Notes under the pieces: model-generated
The model's database searches: none
Seen by the model: only the letters and a program-made list of their open reading frames with translations
Told to the model about the DNA's origin: nothing
Made by a program: the position numbers and the translations under genes
NCBI GenBank assembly: GCA_030615765.1
Contig: JAUWYP010000008.1
Coordinates: 1-64,000, forward strand
DNA: 64,000 nt
Source of the DNA: Dehalococcoidia bacterium
Lineage (GTDB): Bacteria; Chloroflexota; Dehalococcoidia; SM23-28-2
Direction: 5' to 3'
In this document: positions 34,339 through 63,099 of the stretch, piece after piece
How the letters are laid out: each line of letters begins with the position of its first letter
Numbering within the stretch: position 1 is the stretch's first letter

Positions 34339-34758
34339 ATGAGAGCAGAGGTTTTCGCACTTGCCGCATCGACCATCGCCGCCTGGGGCCTGTTCGGCCT
34401 CTTCGGCAAGCTGGCCGTGGAGCGGATCGACCAGCAGGTCATTATTTGGGGCAGCCTCGTGGTCTGCCCGATTGTGTTCCTGGTCTATATGGTAGCCAGC
34501 GGCCAGCTCGTGCCTATCAATCTGCATGCCTCCGGCATCACCTTCGGGCTTCTCGCCGGGCTGGGGGGATGCGTCGGCACGATCCTGTTCTACCAGCTGC
34601 TTGCCCGCGAGCCAGCGTCCCTGGTGGTGCCGATGACCTCCCTCTACCCTGCCCTCACTGTCGTCCTCGCCGCCGCCTTCCTCCACGAGGAACTGGCCGC
34701 TACACGCATCGTTGGCATCATCTTCGCCCTGACGGCGGTGTTCCTGCTCAGCCGGTAG
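34339..34758 (+). CDS. Single-domain EamA/DMT-superfamily transporter
   Basis: 139 aa with five hydrophobic helices and the EamA end motif PALTVVLAAAFLHEELAATRIVGIIF. Most EamA transporters have two copies (about 300 aa); this is the one-domain form, which would act as a dimer. GAGGAG precedes the ATG. Substrate unknown. No paired second-half gene is adjacent. Confidence 0.85.
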   Translation: MRAEVFALAASTIAAWGLFGLFGKLAVERIDQQVIIWGSLVVCPIVFLVYMVASGQLVPINLHASGITFGLLAGLGGCVGTILFYQLLAREPASLVVPMTSLYPALTVVLAAAFLHEELAATRIVGIIFALTAVFLLSR

Positions 34759-34837: not shown

Positions 34838-36490
34838 ATGGCAACCAAATGGTGGGGCTGGGGGGACGAGCGGCGCACCTTCCTCCTGCCAGATCCACAG
34901 CAGTTCTGGGCGCACGTCAGCGGTTGGCTGGGCGAGCTTGGCGTCGGCCAGCGCATCGAGTCCCTCGCCGAGGTCGTCTTGCCCCCGTCTCGCCTGGAAG
35001 CGAAGGCCCTAGACGCCCTGCGCGCGGCCACAGACGCCGAGTCCCTCACCACCGGCAGCGCTGACAGGATCGTCCACAGCCTGGGCAAAAGTTATTGCGA
35101 CCTGGTGCGCATCCGTCGCGGGGAGATCCCTCACGCCACCGATGCCGTCATCTATCCGGAGACAGAGGATCAGGTGGCAGCGCTACTGGGCGCGGCCGCC
35201 GAGCAAGGGATCGCCGTGATCCCCTTCGGCGGCGGCACCTCGGTGCTCGGAGGCGTCGAACCGCTTGGAGCCAAGCCAACCATTACTCTCGACCTGACGC
35301 GGATGAACCGTCTGCTGCGGCTGGACCCGCTGTCCGCGACCGCCACCCTCGAGGCCGGTGTTCTCGGCCCCTCCCTCGAGCAACAGCTCAACGCCAAGGG
35401 CTTCACCCTCGGCCACTTCCCCCAATCCTTCGAGTACTCCAGCCTTGGCGGCTGGATCGCCACCCGCTCGGCAGGCCAGAACTCCACCCTCTACGGCAAG
35501 ATCGAGCACAGAGTCGAAAGCCTGCGCATGGCCTTCCCCGGCGGCACGATTGCCACCCCGGCCGTCCCCGCCGCCGCCGCCGGCCCCGATCTCAACCAGA
35601 TAATTGCCGGCTCGGAGGGCATACTGGGGGTGATCACCCAGGCAACCGTTCGCCTCGCCCCCCTGCCCAGGCGTTGCGACTACCGCGGCTACCTCTTCCC
35701 CGCCTTCCAGCCAGGCGTGGAAGCTGCTCGCGAAGTCATGCAGTCGGGCCTGAGGCCAGCGGTCCTGCGCCTCTCGGACGAGGCCGAGACCGAGGTCACC
35801 CTGGCCATGAGAGCCCCGCCTCACGGACTGATGGCGGCCGCCGAGGGGCTGTACCTCGCCCTGCGCAGGATCAGGCTCGAGGGCGCTGCTTTGATGATCG
35901 TGGGCTTCGATGGGGAGGAGGACCAGGTGCGCTCCGACTGGCGCCGCGCCCAGCGCATCCTCCGCCGCCACCAGGGGTCGTCCCTGGGGCACCGCCCGGG
36001 GCGAGCCTGGGAGCGCTCCCGCTTCGAGCTCCCCTACCTGAGAGACCTCCTCCTCGATCACACTATCATGGTGGACACCGTGGAGACGGCCGCCACCTGG
36101 GACCGCTACCTGCCCCTCTATCACTCCGTCCGCGATGCGCTGGCCAAGGCCATGGACGGCCGCGGACTGGTGATGACTCATCTCTCGCACGCCTACAGCG
36201 ATGGCGCCTCCCTTTACTGCACGTTCCTCGCCCGCCAGGCGGAGGGCCGCGAGCTGGAGCAGTGGCAACAGGCCAAGATCGCTGTCACCGACGCCATCAT
36301 CCGCGCCGGTGGAGCCCTCAGTCACCACCACGGGATCGGCAGCGACCACCGGCCCTGGATGTCCCAATACGTGGGGGCGGCCGGCGTTCGGACACTCGCC
36401 GCCCTTAAGCAGACCTTCGATCCCCAGGGCATCATGAACCCGGGCAAGCTGACGGCGGCGGACGAGGACACGAGCGATGTTGATGTTTAG
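34838..36490 (+). CDS. Alkyldihydroxyacetonephosphate synthase-like FAD-linked enzyme
   Basis: 550 aa. FAD-binding type-4 domain with [13 protein letters not shown]; then [20 protein letters not shown], which aligns with the eukaryotic AGPS segment [36 protein letters not shown]; and [11 protein letters not shown], the AGPS catalytic His triad region. C-terminal [12 protein letters not shown] is shared with the glycolate oxidase group. AGPS exchanges the acyl chain of acyl-DHAP for a fatty alcohol, creating the ether bond. A GlcD-like hydroxyacid oxidase is the alternative, but the His triad and the [10 protein letters not shown] motif favour AGPS. Overlaps glpD by 14 nt. Confidence 0.8.
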   Translation: [550 protein letters not shown]

Positions 36491-38183
36491 GAAGGCAAGG
36501 CCCACCGGCGCATTCTCTTATCGCACCCGCGCCAGCTATCTCGATCGCCTCCAGCGGGAGACCTTCGACCTGGTTATCATCGGCGGCGGCATCACCGGCG
36601 CCGGCATCGCCCGCGACGCCGCCATGCGCGGCCTATCGGTGGCCCTCCTGGAGAAGGGTGACTTCGCCGCAGGCACCAGCAGCAGGTCCTCCAAGATGAT
36701 CCACGGCGGCCTCCGCTACCTCAAGTATCTCCAGATCCGTCTGGTCAAGGAGTCCCTGCGAGAGCGCGAGGTGCTCTTGAAGATCGCTCCTCACCTGGTT
36801 CACCCCTTCCCCTACATCCTGCCGGTCTACGAGGGCGGCCCCGCCAGCCGCCTGCAACTAAAGGTGGGCCTGGTGGCCTACGACCTCCTGGCCGGCTCCC
36901 GCCGTGTCGAACATCACACCATGCTCTCTGCCGACGAGCTCCTGAGGATGGAGCCCGCCCTCCGCCCGGACGGACTGCGAGGCGGCGTTCGCTACTTCGA
37001 CTGCCTGGTGGACGACGCCCGCCTCACCCTGGCCACCATTCGCTCCGCGGCCCGTCACGGTGCCGCCGTGCTCAGCTACGCCGAGGTCACCGAACTCGGG
37101 CGAGACGAGGACCGGGTGACCGGCGTCCGCTTCCATGACCGCCTGGACGGTCGCACTGGCGCCGTTCGGGCTCGGGTCGTGGTCAACGCCACCGGCCCTT
37201 GGACAGACGATCTGCGGGCCAAGGGCGGGGCGTCCCCCATGCTCCGCCCAACGAAGGGGATTCATCTCACGCTCCCTCGCTCCAGCCTCCCCCTATCCGC
37301 CATCATCGCCTTCCCCGCCCTCGATGATCGCCTCATCTTCGCTGTCCCCCTGGGAGACTGCACCTACGTAGGAACGACCGATACAGACTACACCGCCAGC
37401 CCCGATCAGGCGAAAGCCGACGCTGCCGACGTGGAGTACCTTCTGGGCTCGGTCAACGCCACCTTTCAGGGAACGCACCTGTCACCATCAGACGTGATCT
37501 CCACCTGGGCAGGGGTGCGCCCTCTGGTGTTCGAGGAGGGTGCTCCCTCGGACGTGCCCAGGGACTACGAGATCCAGATCGAGCCCGCAGGGCTGGCCTC
37601 CATCGCCGGTGGCAAGCTCACCACCTACCGGGCCATGGCCGAGGAGCTACTGGACCACGTCCTGGCGCAGGAAGGAAAGCGCTTCAACTGGTCGGCGGCG
37701 CCCTGCCGCACGGCCGAGAGTCCCCTTCCCGGTGGCCACCTAGACGGATTCGCACGCTTCGGCGAAGCGACGGCCTCCGCCCTCGAGGAAAGCTGGGGGC
37801 TCTCCCGCCTGGCTGCCGAGCGGCTGGTGCGCACATATGGCACAGAGTACGTGAAGGTCCTGGGATACGCCCTGCCGGACCGGCGGCTCCTCCGCCCCCT
37901 GGTGCCCGGTGGCTCCGTGCTGGGAGTGGAGGCCATCTACGCCGCCGCCGAGGAGATGGCCCTCACCCTGGAGGATTTCATGGCCCGTCGCACAGACCTG
38001 ATGCTCTTCGATCACAACCACGGCCTGTATGCAGCGGACGACGCGGCGCGCCTCATGGCTACGGTCCTGGGCTGGGATCGGCGGGAGCGGCGGCGCCAGG
38101 TGCAACGCTACCGGGAGGCGGTGGCCGCCATGACCGCCTTCGCCGCCGACGAGGAACCAGCCACTGCCAAAGAGCTGCCCTGA
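36477..38183 (+). CDS. glpD: Glycerol-3-phosphate dehydrogenase, GlpD/GlpA type
   Basis: 568 aa. FAD motif LVIIGGGITGAGIARDAAMRG, then EKGDFAAGTSSRSSKMIHGGLRYL, the signature of GlpD. The C-terminal DAO domain and helical cap (YAAAEEMALTLEDFMARRTDL) complete the family length. It converts sn-glycerol-3-phosphate to DHAP with electrons to quinone. Overlap with the AGPS-like gene and a TGATG junction with the lipid kinase show a coupled operon, which would supply DHAP for ether-lipid synthesis or let ether glycerolipids feed back. General glycerol catabolism with the distant glpK at 58743 is the simpler alternative. Confidence 0.92.
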   Translation: MLMFRKARPTGAFSYRTRASYLDRLQRETFDLVIIGGGITGAGIARDAAMRGLSVALLEKGDFAAGTSSRSSKMIHGGLRYLKYLQIRLVKESLREREVLLKIAPHLVHPFPYILPVYEGGPASRLQLKVGLVAYDLLAGSRRVEHHTMLSADELLRMEPALRPDGLRGGVRYFDCLVDDARLTLATIRSAARHGAAVLSYAEVTELGRDEDRVTGVRFHDRLDGRTGAVRARVVVNATGPWTDDLRAKGGASPMLRPTKGIHLTLPRSSLPLSAIIAFPALDDRLIFAVPLGDCTYVGTTDTDYTASPDQAKADAADVEYLLGSVNATFQGTHLSPSDVISTWAGVRPLVFEEGAPSDVPRDYEIQIEPAGLASIAGGKLTTYRAMAEELLDHVLAQEGKRFNWSAAPCRTAESPLPGGHLDGFARFGEATASALEESWGLSRLAAERLVRTYGTEYVKVLGYALPDRRLLRPLVPGGSVLGVEAIYAAAEEMALTLEDFMARRTDLMLFDHNHGLYAADDAARLMATVLGWDRRERRRQVQRYREAVAAMTAFAADEEPATAKELP

Positions 38184-39100
38184 TGCCAGACCTTATCCTC
38201 ATCGTCAACCCCCACTCCGCCAACGGCTCCACCGGCCGCCGCTGGCCAGCCATCGAGGACAAGCTGCGCTCGCTGCTCCCCCCGTTCGATGTCGCCTTCA
38301 CCGAGCGCGTGGGCCACGCCACCGCCATCGCCCGCGAGGCCGCCGGTCGATACGGCTGCGTCGCCCTCGTGGGCGGCGACGGCACCGTCAACGAGGTCGC
38401 CAACGGCCTCATCGCCGACGATCGCCCCCTGCGCTCCGACCTGGCCCTGGGGGTCATCTGCCGCGGCACCGGATCGGACTTCATCCGCACCCTGGGCATC
38501 CCCCGCGATCTGGAAGGAGCCGCCGAGCGCCTGGCCATGGGCCAGATGCGGGAGATCGACGTGGGCAAGATCCGCTTTCGCAGCCCGGACGGAAGCGAGG
38601 CCGTTCGCTACTTCCTCAACGAGGCCGATATCGGCATGGGAGCCGTAGTCTGCGACCGAGTCAATCGCAGCTCCAAGAGGCTGGGCGGACGCCTCTCCTT
38701 CCTGCGGGCCATCCTGATCACCACGCTGACCTACCGCGGTCACCTGGTGACCCTCTCCCTCGACGGCGCTCCCGCCCAGCAAATGCTTCTGGGCAATGCC
38801 TGGTTCGCCAACGGCCAGTACTCCGGCGGCGGCATCCGCATGGCACCCCGCGCTCGTCTGGACGACGGCCTTCTGGATGTGGTGTGCATGGGCGACATGA
38901 GCCGGCTGCAAAAGGTTTTTTCCTTTCGCAAGCTGCGCAGCGGCGCCTTCGTCGACCTGCCCCAGGTCACCTACCGCACCGCCCGCCGGATCGAGGCCGA
39001 GTCCGCGGCGACAGTGGGCATCTCCACCGAGGGCGAGGTCATCGGCACCCTGCCCGCCACCTTCGAGCTCATCGGCGAGCGCCTCAAGGTCATCGCCTAG
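38183..39100 (+). CDS. YegS/DgkB-type lipid (diacylglycerol) kinase
   Basis: 305 aa. GGDGTVNEVANGL is the DAGK catalytic motif; NPHSANGSTGRRWP at the N-terminus and ICRGTGSDFIRTLG are the flanking signatures, with a C-terminal EGEVIGTLPATFELIGERL domain. These enzymes phosphorylate diacylglycerol, or related lipids, to phosphatidic acid. The start shares one base with the glpD stop (TGATG), so coupling is tight. With the AGPS-like enzyme and GlpD it completes a glycerolipid gene set. Confidence 0.88.
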   Translation: MPDLILIVNPHSANGSTGRRWPAIEDKLRSLLPPFDVAFTERVGHATAIAREAAGRYGCVALVGGDGTVNEVANGLIADDRPLRSDLALGVICRGTGSDFIRTLGIPRDLEGAAERLAMGQMREIDVGKIRFRSPDGSEAVRYFLNEADIGMGAVVCDRVNRSSKRLGGRLSFLRAILITTLTYRGHLVTLSLDGAPAQQMLLGNAWFANGQYSGGGIRMAPRARLDDGLLDVVCMGDMSRLQKVFSFRKLRSGAFVDLPQVTYRTARRIEAESAATVGISTEGEVIGTLPATFELIGERLKVIA

Positions 39101-58742: not shown

Positions 58743-60236
58743 TTGCCCGAGTACATCCTGGCCCTCGACCAGGGGACCACCAGCTCGCGGGCCATCCTCT
58801 TCGACCGCCAGGGCCAGCCCGTCGCCAGCGCTGGTCACCCCATCCGCCAGATCTATCCCCAGAGCGGCTGGGTGGAGCACGACCCCCAGGAGATATGGGA
58901 ATCGCAGCTGGCCTCGGCGCGAGAGGTGCTGGAGGCGGCTGGCGCCCGCGCCTCCCAGGTCGCCGCCATCGGCATAACCAACCAGCGGGAGACCACCATC
59001 CTCTGGGATCGCCAGACGGGCGAGCCGCTGGCCAACGCCATCGTCTGGCAGTGCCGCCGCACGGCCCCCCTCTGCCAGGAGCTCAAGGAGCGAGGGCTGG
59101 AGCCCTCCTTTCGCCAGAAGACGGGGCTGGTCATCGACCCCTACTTCTCGGGCACCAAGGTCGCCTGGATGCTCGACAACATCCCCGGCGCTCGAGCCAG
59201 GGCCGAACGCGGCGACCTCCTCTTCGGCACGGTGGACTGCTGGCTCCTCTACAAGCTCACGGGCGGGCGCGTCCACGCCACCGACTACACCAACGCCTCG
59301 CGGACCCTCATGTTCAACATCTCCCGCCTCGCCTGGGACGAAGAGGCCCTTAGCGAGCTGGCCGTCCCTTCTTCCCTCCTGCCGACTGTTCTCCCCTCCT
59401 GCGGCGTCTTCGGCCAGGCCGAGCCATCCCTTCTGGGAGCAGCCCTACCCATCGCCGGCATTGCCGGCGACCAGCAGGCCGCCCTCTTCGGCCAGGCCTG
59501 CTTTCAGGTGGGCATGGGCAAGAACACCTACGGCACCGGCTGCTTCGTCCTGATGAACGTCGGCCACGATAGTCTTCCCCTGGGCTCATCCCTGGTCACC
59601 ACCATCGCCTGGGGCCTGGGCCAGGGTGTTGAGTACGCCCTCGAGGGCAGCATCTTCATCGCCGGTGCGGCCGTGCAGTGGCTGCGGGACGGCCTTGGGC
59701 TCATAGCCACCGCCGCCGAGAGCGAGGCGCTTGCCGCCAGCGTCCCCTCCAGCGATGGCGTGTACGTGGTCCCCGCCTTCGTCGGCCTTGGCGCGCCCCA
59801 TTGGGACCCGCGCGCCCGGGGCACCATCGTGGGCATCACCCGCGGCACGACTCGCGCCCACCTGGTGCGCGCCACCCTGGAGGCCATCGCCTTCCAGACG
59901 CGCGACGTCATCGAAACGATGGAGAGCGAGTGCGCCCTCACCCTCCCGGAGCTGCGGGTGGACGGCGGTGCCGTCGCCAACGACCTGCTGATGCAGATCC
60001 AGGCCGACATCCTCGGCCGCGAGGTGGTGCGACCGGCGGTTACGGAGACCACCGCCCTCGGTGCCGCCTACCTGGCCGGCCTCGCCGTAGGCTGCTGGCA
60101 GGGGCAGGACGAGCTGACCGGCAAGTGGCGGGTGGACAGACGATTCCAGCCTCAGATGGACGCCAGCCAGCGCGACGAGCTGTACCAGGGCTGGAAGAGA
60201 GCGGTCGAGCGAGCCAAAGGCTGGGCCAGCGAGTAG
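58743..60236 (+). CDS. glpK: Glycerol kinase
   Basis: 497 aa, TTG start with AGGAGG at 6-7 nt. [39 protein letters not shown] and the C-terminal [19 protein letters not shown] are GlpK signatures (FGGY family). It phosphorylates glycerol to sn-glycerol-3-phosphate, which GlpD at 36477 would oxidise. No glycerol facilitator gene is here. Followed, after 58 nt, by the glycolate oxidase genes. Full length and no missing motifs. Confidence 0.95.
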
Positions 60237-60294
60237 CCCGAGGCCAGCCCTTCCTGTGGCGACAAGCCTCCGCGAATGCTAGACTGTATATGGA

Positions 60295-61740
60295 ATGGCT
60301 GACCGCAAGCTCGTCCGCGAATTGCAGGCCATCGTCGGCCGCGATGCCGTTCTTCATGCCCCCGAGGACCTCCTGGTCTACGAGTACGACGCCACCATCG
60401 AGCGCGGCCTCCCCGAGGCCGTAGTCCTTCCCACCAGCGCCGAGCAGGTCTCGCAGGTAGTGAAGCTGGCCCGCCGTCGCGGCCTGCCGGTCGTCGCCCG
60501 AGGCGCGGGCACCGGCCTCAGCGGCGGCGCTATCCCCACCGCTGGCGGCATCACGCTGGTCACGACCCGCATGAAGCGCATCCTGGAGGTCGATGCCGAG
60601 AATCGCCTGGCAGTCGTCGAGCCGGGCCTGGTGAACCTGGACCTCAGCGCCGCCCTCAGCCGCTTCGGCCTCTACTACGCCCCCGATCCCTCCAGCCAGA
60701 AGGTTTGCACCCTGGGCGGCAACGTGGCCGAGAACGCCGGCGGCCCCCACTGCCTGGCCTACGGCGTCACCACCAACCATGTGCTGGGGCTGGAGGTCGT
60801 CCTGGCCGACGGCCAGATCGCCTGGCTGGGAGGCAGAACCGCCGACCGGCCCGGCTACGACCTGCGCAGCCTGGTGATAGGCTCCGAGGGCACCCTGGCC
60901 ATCGTCACCAAGATCATCGTGCGCCTTCTGCCCCTACCGGAGGCCACCATCACCCTGCTGGCCATCTTCAACGAGATGGAGCAGGCCAGCCAGGCCGTCT
61001 CGGCCATCATCGGCAAGGGGATGCTGCCCGCCGCCCTGGAGATGCTCGACAAGGTGACCATGGGCGCGGTGGAGGAGGCCGTGCACGCTGGCTACCCCCC
61101 CGACGCCGCTGCCGTCCTCCTCATCGAGGTCGAGGGCTGGCAGGACAGCGTGGGGGAGCAGGCGGAGGCCATACGCGCTATCTGCGAGAATTTGGGCGCT
61201 CGCGAAGTGCGAATCGGCTTCACCCCCGAGGACCGAGAGGCCCTCTGGGCCGGCCGAAAGGGAGCCCTGGGAGCCCTCGGCCGCCTCGCCCCCAGCTACT
61301 ACATCCTCGATGGCACAGTGCCTCGCACCAAGCTGCCCCAGGTGTTGCGCGGCGTCTACGAAATCGGCGAGAGGTACGGCTTCCCCATCGCCAACGTCTT
61401 CCATGCCGGCGACGGCAACCTCCACCCCAACATCGCCTTCGATGAGTCTCAGCCCGGCGAGGCGGAGAAGGCACTGGAGGCGGGAACGGAGATAATGCGC
61501 CTCTGCGTCGACGCCGGCGGAACCATCACCGGCGAGCACGGCGTCGGCATGGAGAAACGCGACTTCATGCGCTGGATCTTCTCCGACGACGACCTGGAGG
61601 CCATGAAGCGCATTCAGGTAGCCTTCGCGTCGGAGCAGCGCTTCAACCCGGGGAAGATCTTCCCCGCCGCCAGCGGCGGGGAGACCACCTCCCGCCAGCG
61701 AGCGGTCATCCATCCGCTGGGTCCCGATGCCTACGTCTAG
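60295..61740 (+). CDS. glcD: Glycolate/D-lactate oxidase FAD subunit GlcD
   Basis: 481 aa. PCMH FAD domain with GAGTGLSGGAIPTAGG and NVAENAGGPHCLAYGVTTNHVLG, then GSEGTLAIVTKI, and C-terminal HAGDGNLHPNIAFD and TGEHGVGMEKRDFM. It oxidises glycolate or D-2-hydroxyacids, with electrons passed to GlcF. There is no RBS before the ATG; TAGACT at 60280-60285 lies 10 nt upstream, so a leaderless start is possible. First gene of glcDEF. Confidence 0.92.
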   Translation: MADRKLVRELQAIVGRDAVLHAPEDLLVYEYDATIERGLPEAVVLPTSAEQVSQVVKLARRRGLPVVARGAGTGLSGGAIPTAGGITLVTTRMKRILEVDAENRLAVVEPGLVNLDLSAALSRFGLYYAPDPSSQKVCTLGGNVAENAGGPHCLAYGVTTNHVLGLEVVLADGQIAWLGGRTADRPGYDLRSLVIGSEGTLAIVTKIIVRLLPLPEATITLLAIFNEMEQASQAVSAIIGKGMLPAALEMLDKVTMGAVEEAVHAGYPPDAAAVLLIEVEGWQDSVGEQAEAIRAICENLGAREVRIGFTPEDREALWAGRKGALGALGRLAPSYYILDGTVPRTKLPQVLRGVYEIGERYGFPIANVFHAGDGNLHPNIAFDESQPGEAEKALEAGTEIMRLCVDAGGTITGEHGVGMEKRDFMRWIFSDDDLEAMKRIQVAFASEQRFNPGKIFPAASGGETTSRQRAVIHPLGPDAYV

Positions 61741-61758
61741 ACTGGAAAAGGTAGCGTC

Positions 61759-63099
61759 TTGGTAAAGGAAAGCCTTCTCCACAACCTGCTGGAGTCCGCC
61801 CTGGACAGTCAGCGCGTCTTCCCGCGCGAGGAAGCAGCCGGCTACGCCGTAGACGGCATCATCCCTCAGGTCGCCGTCCTACCGGTGACGGTAGAAGAGG
61901 TGGCGGAGGTGATGCGCCTGGCCAGCCGAGAAGATGCAGCGGTCATCCCCTGGGGCGGCGGCACGGCCATCAGCCTGGGCAACACCCCCCGCCGCTACGA
62001 CATCGCCCTCTGCCTCTCCCGCCTGAACCAGGTCGTAGAGCACGAGCCCGCTGACCTCACGGTCACCATCCAGGCTGGAAAGAGCCTGGCCGATCTCCAG
62101 CGCCACCTGGCCGAGAGCGGCCAGTTCCTTGCCCTCGACCCGTCATCGGGGCAGGAGGCCACCATCGGCGGCATACTGGCCGTCAACGCCTCCGGCCCCT
62201 CTCGCCACGCCTACGGCACCGCCCGCGACCTGATCCTGGGGATGCGCGCCGTCCAGGCCGACGGCCGCATCATCAAGGCCGGCGGCCGGGTGGTGAAGAA
62301 CGTGGCCGGCTACGACCTCAGTCGCCTGATCATCGGCTCCCTGGGCAGCCTCGGCGTCATCGTCGAGGCCTGCTTCAGGCTGGCCCCCTTGCCCAGAGCC
62401 GGGAGGACAGCGGTCGTCTCCCTTCCCTCGGCCCGGGAGGCCTGGCGGTTCGTCGCCCAGACGGCCAACCTCAGCCTGCGCGCCGTGGAGCTGCTCAACG
62501 CCGCGGCAGTCAGGCAGACCGCCATCCTGGGCGAGCCGACGAAAGATGGCTACGCTCTGGTGCTGGCCGCGGCCGGCGAGCCCGCGGCGGTGGAGCACTC
62601 CCTCAAGGAAATAAGCGAACTCTCCCGTCGGGCGGCCGCCGCCTCCTTCGCGGAAGTAGATGAGGCCGACCAAGACCGGCTCTGGCAAGCCATCGCCGGC
62701 CTCGCCCGACCCTCACCCAGCGACGCCAGCCTGGTCTGCAAGGCGGCCCTCCTGCCCTCCCAGGTGCCCACCCTCAGCGAGCAGCTAGAGACGACGGGTC
62801 GGGAGCTGGGCCTGCAGCCGCTGCTGGTCTCCCATCTGACGGCAGGCATCGTCTACAGCGCCTGGCCCCTTCCCCAGGACGATGACGCCCAACGGGCGCT
62901 CGACCTGGCGGCTACCCTTCGCCAGTCCGTCGCCCGCCTCGGCGGCAGCTTGGTGGTGGAGGCCTGCCCCCTGCCCCTCAAGGAGAAGATCGATGTCTGG
63001 GGCGAGCCCGCCGGCGACTTCCCCCTCATGCAGCGGATCAAGGAGCAGTTCGACCCTCAGGGCATCCTCAGCCCCGGTCGCTTCCTGGGGAGGCTATGA
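61759..63099 (+). CDS. glcE: Glycolate oxidase FAD-binding subunit GlcE
   Basis: 446 aa, TTG start. Shorter PCMH domain with IPWGGGTAISLGNTPRR, GGILAVNASGPSRHAYGTARDLILG and GGRVVKNVAGYDLSRLIIGSLG, the GlcE pattern, ending FDPQGILSPGRFLGRL. It partners GlcD and GlcF in the membrane-associated oxidase. Its stop overlaps the GlcF start as ATGA. GGAAAAGG is the only upstream ribosome site. Confidence 0.9.
   Translation: MVKESLLHNLLESALDSQRVFPREEAAGYAVDGIIPQVAVLPVTVEEVAEVMRLASREDAAVIPWGGGTAISLGNTPRRYDIALCLSRLNQVVEHEPADLTVTIQAGKSLADLQRHLAESGQFLALDPSSGQEATIGGILAVNASGPSRHAYGTARDLILGMRAVQADGRIIKAGGRVVKNVAGYDLSRLIIGSLGSLGVIVEACFRLAPLPRAGRTAVVSLPSAREAWRFVAQTANLSLRAVELLNAAAVRQTAILGEPTKDGYALVLAAAGEPAAVEHSLKEISELSRRAAAASFAEVDEADQDRLWQAIAGLARPSPSDASLVCKAALLPSQVPTLSEQLETTGRELGLQPLLVSHLTAGIVYSAWPLPQDDDAQRALDLAATLRQSVARLGGSLVVEACPLPLKEKIDVWGEPAGDFPLMQRIKEQFDPQGILSPGRFLGRL

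Follow-up and report, generated by a model that had tools for sequence, protein, structure and literature searches.

The known route of ether-lipid synthesis requires a fatty alcohol, supplied by fatty acyl-CoA reductase (FAR), acyl-DHAP, made by GNPAT, and a reductase for alkyl-DHAP. The half-reaction of AGPS has been described, and mutagenesis of the Dictyostelium enzyme has shown that Arg352, Arg447 and Tyr508 matter (PMC3509576). AGPS homologues in many bacterial phyla have been described as potential ether-lipid makers and as markers in environmental genomes (PMC11868695), and MXAN_1676 of Myxococcus xanthus, reported to be ~42% identical to human AGPS, adjoins a FAR–acyltransferase fusion (PMC9131029). 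For the opposite direction, AGMO has been described as the only known alkylglycerol-cleaving enzyme (PMC7911779, PMC3617469). Lipid kinases of the YegS type usually act on diacylglycerol, and Rv2252 of Mycobacterium tuberculosis has been reported as a diacylglycerol kinase (PMC3229680); together with Rv2250A and Rv2251 it is upregulated on resuscitation of this organism (PMC6689984).

The window analysed here comprises 64,000 nucleotides of contig JAUWYP010000008.1, belonging to a Dehalococcoidia MAG of 2.08 Mb in 56 contigs (92.7% complete, 5.9% contamination). Three ORFs on the + strand were confirmed (Table 1), and their overlaps are in the style of a translationally coupled operon, bearing out the first-pass annotation: the start of the GlpD ORF overlaps the end of the AGPS-like ORF by 14 nt, and the kinase ORF overlaps the GlpD ORF by 1 nt (TGATG). 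The Pfam scores of all three proteins are far above the curated cut-offs, and a promoter and terminator scan returned nothing beyond chance. Just upstream lies an EamA-type transporter gene of about half the usual family length, which we rejected as an operon member as it was not found in related loci.

Table 1 Positions in the window of the operon genes and of further genes named in the text
Feature	Position	Strand	Length and domains
EamA-type transporter gene	34339..34758		139 aa
AGPS-like FAD enzyme	34838..36490	+	550 aa; FAD_binding_4 + FAD-oxidase_C (Pfam)
GlpD-type FAD glycerol-3-phosphate dehydrogenase	36477..38183	+	568 aa; DAO + DAO_C (Pfam)
YegS/Rv2252/BmrU-family lipid kinase	38183..39100	+	305 aa; DAGK_cat + YegS_C (PF00781, PF19279)
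Glycerol kinase (GlpK)	58743..60236
Apparent operon of glycerol kinase, GlcD-type oxidase and second shorter FAD oxidase	58743..63099

The first protein, termed the flavoenzyme here, is a member of the AGPS superfamily, and in both sequence and predicted fold it most resembles eukaryotic AGPS. A sequence search of the PDB gave Dictyostelium AGPS (2uuu) as its best match with an E value of 1.8e-108 and guinea pig AGPS (4bby) at 7.9e-74, the first non-AGPS match being a D-lactate dehydrogenase (D-LDH) at 7.9e-36. Likewise, the 37 best PDB structure matches of its AF2 model (pLDDT 90.2) were all AGPS, with TM-scores of 0.78–0.90, followed by LDHD (mLDHD). The flavoenzyme contains both motifs named at first pass, [15 protein letters not shown] and SHHHGIG, and its amino-terminal motif [10 protein letters not shown] has KWNGWGDTRK as its counterpart in Dictyostelium AGPS. 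Residues R311, R402 and Y460 align with the catalytic Arg/Arg/Tyr of AGPS (the Dictyostelium residues given above, corresponding to guinea pig Arg419/Arg515/Tyr578), and the flanking histidine is conserved as well. These three positions are nearly invariant across the AGPS superfamily, but not in the GlcD/D-LDH outgroup. The GlcD/D-LDH family shares the FAD_binding_4 and FAD-oxidase_C architecture with the flavoenzyme, yet membership in GlcD was ruled out by tree, family score and residues: the phylogeny that the first-pass annotation had called for placed the flavoenzyme outside the separate GlcD/D-LDH outgroup (support 100/100), its score against the GlcD family TIGR00387 was 154 bits, far under the cut-off of 567.9 (NCBIfam), and the GlcD-family glutamate (GEHG) is replaced by histidine (HHHG).

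Within the superfamily, AGPS proper was ruled out as the identity of the flavoenzyme by its clade placement and the missing invariant aspartate. A maximum-likelihood tree of 88 proteins, rooted on GlcD/LDH, contained an AGPS-proper clade of 11 members with support 100/99, which leaves out the window's protein and holds both the eukaryotic AGPS and bacterial homologues next to FAR or PlsC-type acyltransferase genes. The FAR neighbour (PF07993, E 1e-63, with a Sterile domain) was found at one locus and PlsC-type acyltransferase neighbours, with or without an SDR, at six. The window's gene clusters with homologues whose linked genes are GlpD, lipid kinase, a glycerol-kinase-like gene or FadR. After 18 Myxococcota sequences were added to the homologue set, support for the AGPS-proper clade was 98 with the window's protein still outside, and monophyly of the window's whole type received moderate support (83). 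A FAR-like gene lies just downstream in 9/10 high-identity Myxococcota loci examined, and the FAR-bearing ones fall in AGPS proper; the remaining added sequences group with the window's type. Two Myxococcota genomes (G509, G568) hold both types, one copy with FAR and the other with GlpD and kinase. With tree rows labelled by neighbour (17 biosynthetic or eukaryotic, 57 GlpD/kinase/FadR/FGGY), the tree requires a single change of gene context, compared with at least 12 changes and a mean of 15.5 in 200 label shuffles. Position 196 is glutamine (GHFPQS) in 79 of the 80 proteins of the window's type and aspartate in 19/19 of AGPS proper, where the two solved eukaryotic enzymes carry GH[D/E]PDS with Asp303/Asp237 in the place of the window's Gln196. 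GHFPQS, taken at first pass for an AGPS-type motif, is therefore a signature of the sister group and not of AGPS proper.

Several further groups were seen among the homologues. A third AGPS-like clade, GlpD-free and outside AGPS proper, was represented by eight loci, with copies on plasmids of Mycobacterium dioxanotrophicus, Rhodococcus, Cupriavidus and Ancylobacter; the Rhodococcus copy adjoins a sterol desaturase family gene and lies near beta-oxidation genes. In many Chloroflexota, a gene for an E. coli-like FadR precedes the AGPS-like and GlpD genes (L044:210-896 and similar), and this FadR-linked clade has SHQHG in place of SHHHG. Within AGPS proper, loci of Verrucomicrobiota and Planctomycetota (L094:3976-8431, L097, L091) carry HMG-CoA reductase and PlsC-type acyltransferase genes directly before AGPS, those of Verrucomicrobiota also an SDR after it, and two Acidobacteriota loci carry the acyltransferase; the loci of these three phyla are candidate biosynthetic ether-lipid operons. 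In a Gemmatimonadetes MAG (L101:5350-8683), the FAR gene overlaps the AGPS-proper gene.

The second protein scored 374.6 bits against the GlpD family NF008899 (cut-off 360; NCBIfam), its G3P-site motifs HGGLRYL, KGIH, WAGVRPL and GGKLTTYR are intact, and residues R80, Y81, H263, R348 and T382 are conserved. It is the sole GlpD found in the window's genome. Among 16 genomes of the window's order, each of the eight that carry the AGPS-like gene has one GlpD and no more, the linked copy, and none of the eight without it has any. A single gain or loss of the operon, instead of separate events, could explain this co-occurrence; presence of GlpK does not track that of the AGPS-like gene in these genomes. 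In genomes with two GlpD genes, such as Mycobacterium G441 and Streptomyces G442, the AGPS-linked GlpD falls in a different clade from the free one, so that the linked copy looks specialised, and at the thresholds used no residues separating linked from free copies were found. The third protein carries a GGDGTVNE motif and scored 139.9 bits for TIGR00147 (cut-off 118.65; NCBIfam). It is an additional copy beside the genome's other DAGK_cat kinases: operon-bearing genomes have the linked kinase plus other strong DAGK_cat kinases, and operon-free genomes one strong match each. Elsewhere in the window, genes for a glycerol kinase, a GlcD-type oxidase and another, shorter FAD oxidase stand in this order in what appears to be one operon (Table 1).

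The same trio in the same order was found in seven genomes of the same genus, family and order; the same-family locus L081 is labelled Chloroflexota. More broadly, it occurs in Chloroflexota, Actinomycetota, Alphaproteobacteria, Myxococcota, Bacteroidota and Hydrogenedentota with differing gene orders (AGPS-GlpD-kinase; GlpD-kinase-AGPS; divergent GlpD-TetR/AGPS-kinase). In a neighbour survey of 80 named loci drawn from the genome collection, GlpD and/or the kinase stood beside the AGPS-like gene in most Actinomycetota and also in Pseudomonadota, Bacteroidota, Hydrogenedentota and archaeal-labelled MAGs, and GlpD adjoined the AGPS-like gene in 27/35 Chloroflexota loci examined. Streptomyces and Tsukamurella plasmid annotation lists a glycerol-3-phosphate dehydrogenase, TetR, a FAD-binding oxidoreductase and a lipid or diacylglycerol kinase. 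Two of the loci (L088, L127), on contigs of Euryarchaeota- and Thermoplasmatota-labelled MAGs, carry AGPS-like and GlpD genes, the former also the kinase, with contamination as a possible source. In addition, members of the trio are fused. A single 1098-aa ORF of a Proteobacteria MAG (L111, from about 2127) joins AGPS (10-556) to GlpD (566-1080), and a single 864-aa ORF of a Hydrogenedentota MAG (L138:1259-3850), directly before the AGPS-like gene, joins GlpD (29-509) to the kinase (558-856). The window's family has the AGPS domain of the first fusion as its closest sister (100/98); the placement of this domain within AGPS proper in a first quick tree was rejected as a long-branch artefact, as trimming of the GlpD half moved it beside the window's protein. 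The functional link between AGPS-like enzyme, GlpD and lipid kinase pointed out at first pass is real and very widely conserved, gene fusions included. No description of this module or of its fusions was found in the literature searched, which mostly excluded subscription journals.

The flavoenzyme sits in a sister group of AGPS proper, retains the catalytic residues and is coupled to GlpD and a lipid kinase, in places by gene fusion. We propose that the operon encodes a module of this sister group dedicated to glycerol ether lipids, which most likely acts in the direction of cleavage (salvage); we infer both direction and substrate identity. In such a module, the lipid kinase would phosphorylate 1-O-alkylglycerol (or alkyl-acyl-glycerol) freed from ether lipids, and GlpD would oxidise the free C2 hydroxyl of the resulting 1-O-alkyl-glycerol-3-phosphate to 1-O-alkyl-DHAP, with electrons passing to quinone. 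As the new C2 ketone would make C1-H acidic, the AGPS-like enzyme could then reverse the AGPS half-reaction, a Tyr460-assisted C1 carbanion adding to FAD N5 while the fatty alcohol departs. Finally, the flavin-bound DHAP would be freed either by water, giving DHAP, or by a carboxylate, giving acyl-DHAP.

GlpD normally works in the oxidising direction, and FadR is acyl-CoA-responsive in E. coli. Sister Chloroflexota operons carry FadR (FadR_C; E 2.5e-48 to E. coli FadR in the PDB) together with an FGGY kinase close to glycerol kinase, which gives them a catabolic, lipid-responsive look. Along with these features, the gene coupling and fusions, the FAR, PlsC or SDR neighbours that mark AGPS proper, and the exchange of Asp for Gln at position 196 point to cleavage. 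The direct fusion of AGPS and GlpD is easiest to understand when one enzyme makes what the other consumes; in synthesis, DHAP must first pass through an acyltransferase before it reaches AGPS. The usual diacylglycerol substrate of YegS-type kinases, and the fact that no GlpD residue separating linked from free copies was found at the thresholds used, weigh against cleavage. Mammalian GPD2, which supplies DHAP for ether-lipid synthesis, is a counter-example to the cleavage reading (PMC9830446), and for this reason we give cleavage or salvage a probability of roughly 0.45, with synthesis as the next candidate. We are somewhat more tentative about the broader possibility that bacteria widely carry an ether-lipid cleavage pathway in which the GHFPQS sister group would run the peroxisomal AGPS route in reverse, requiring neither O2 nor tetrahydrobiopterin at the cleavage step. 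We found no published report of AGPS acting as an ether hydrolase.

Biosynthesis is the serious rival, although we consider it rather unlikely. Here, GlpD would give DHAP (or acyl-DHAP from 1-acyl-G3P), the AGPS-like enzyme would swap acyl for alkyl, and the kinase or general lipid enzymes would finish the ether phospholipid. The AGPS fold, the conserved R311, R402, Y460 and flanking histidine, the precedent of GPD2 supporting synthesis in mammals (PMC9830446), and the use of bacterial AGPS homologues, those of Chloroflexota included, as ether-lipid markers (PMC11868695) are all consistent with it. Its weak points are the position of the flavoenzyme outside the AGPS-proper clade, the glutamine in place of the invariant aspartate, the two Myxococcota genomes that keep a FAR-linked copy apart from a GlpD- and kinase-linked one, and the partner enzymes. 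The Pfam family NAD_binding_4 alone was discarded as a FAR test, as it matched in 16/16 genomes and 14/14 controls; being uninformative on its own, it was replaced by a true FAR protein as query. This query, representing a single FAR family, matched four of the genomes with AGPS proper, but neither the window's genome nor any of 20 further homologue-bearing Chloroflexota genomes; the best NAD_binding_4 score in the window's genome was 55.7 bits vs 215 for a true FAR. The search for a FAR advised at first pass thus yielded no recognisable one in the window's genome, in which we found one PF01553 (PlsC-type) acyltransferase, and with the MAG being 92.7% complete the absence of such partners is uncertain. 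Furthermore, fatty alcohols can come from enzymes other than the FAR family queried. Among the labelled rows of the loci examined, neither FAR nor PlsC ever stands beside the window's type. Of the first-pass reading that the operon makes or remodels ether lipids, the second half, extended to degradation, thus fits better; 'makes' is the weaker half, given the clade placement, the lack of the invariant aspartate and of a FAR, and the single PlsC-type acyltransferase.

Less likely still is a DHAP-type substrate other than an alkyl ether, such as lysophosphatidate recycled via acyl-DHAP, or a reaction that exchanges or hydrolyses a different C1 substituent. Gln196, HQH in place of HHH in the FadR-linked clade and the GlpD-free plasmid clade suggest chemical diversification, whereas the close match of catalytic residues and predicted fold to AGPS speaks for unchanged flavin-DHAP chemistry with a long-chain substrate. 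Very improbable is an ordinary glycerol/G3P catabolic operon with the flavoenzyme and kinase as loosely associated passengers, or with a GlcD-like 2-hydroxyacid oxidase as its flavoenzyme: the canonical active-site residues of GlpD and the GlpK gene in the same window would suit it, but the fusions and co-conservation across phyla, the separate GlcD/D-LDH outgroup, the His in place of the GEHG Glu, R402 and Y460 not being conserved in that outgroup, and the presence of GlpK without GlpD in related genomes all argue against it.

Should most of the hits in Chloroflexota and Actinomycetota fall in a separate and possibly degradative group, counts of AGPS as a marker would over-call ether-lipid producers, and one residue together with gene context distinguishes AGPS proper from the window's group. 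If cleavage is true, alkylglycerol ethers could be broken by a second biochemical mechanism besides AGMO (PMC7911779), bacteria would have a route for ether-lipid recycling, and a role would be suggested for the uncharacterised flavoprotein next to the mycobacterial diacylglycerol kinase.

Compared with AGPS, the flavoenzyme shares the predicted fold (TM-score 0.78–0.90), the amino-terminal WxGWG motif and the catalytic Arg/Arg/Tyr and His, but it lies outside the AGPS-proper clade, has Gln for Asp303/Asp237, and its gene has GlpD and a kinase as neighbours, not FAR, GNPAT or a reductase. The MXAN_1676-1674 operon of M. xanthus is likewise a lipid operon with a bacterial AGPS homologue (PMC9131029). 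Myxococcota loci of this MXAN_1676-1675 arrangement are AGPS proper, and some of the genomes that carry them also have a gene of the window's type. The actinobacterial glpD/TetR/FAD-binding oxidoreductase/YegS-type kinase locus has the same three families side by side as the window, with GlpD divergent and accompanied by a TetR regulator, and its AGPS-like proteins are ~42–46% identical to the window's. M. tuberculosis Rv2249c-Rv2252 is such a locus; the function of the actinobacterial flavoprotein was not described in the literature found. Alkyl ether glycerolipids are not a known feature of mycobacteria. AGMO, finally, reaches the same end as the proposed module, cleavage of the alkylglycerol ether, but does so as a membrane-bound, tetrahydrobiopterin-dependent monooxygenase of a family unrelated to the AGPS-like enzyme.
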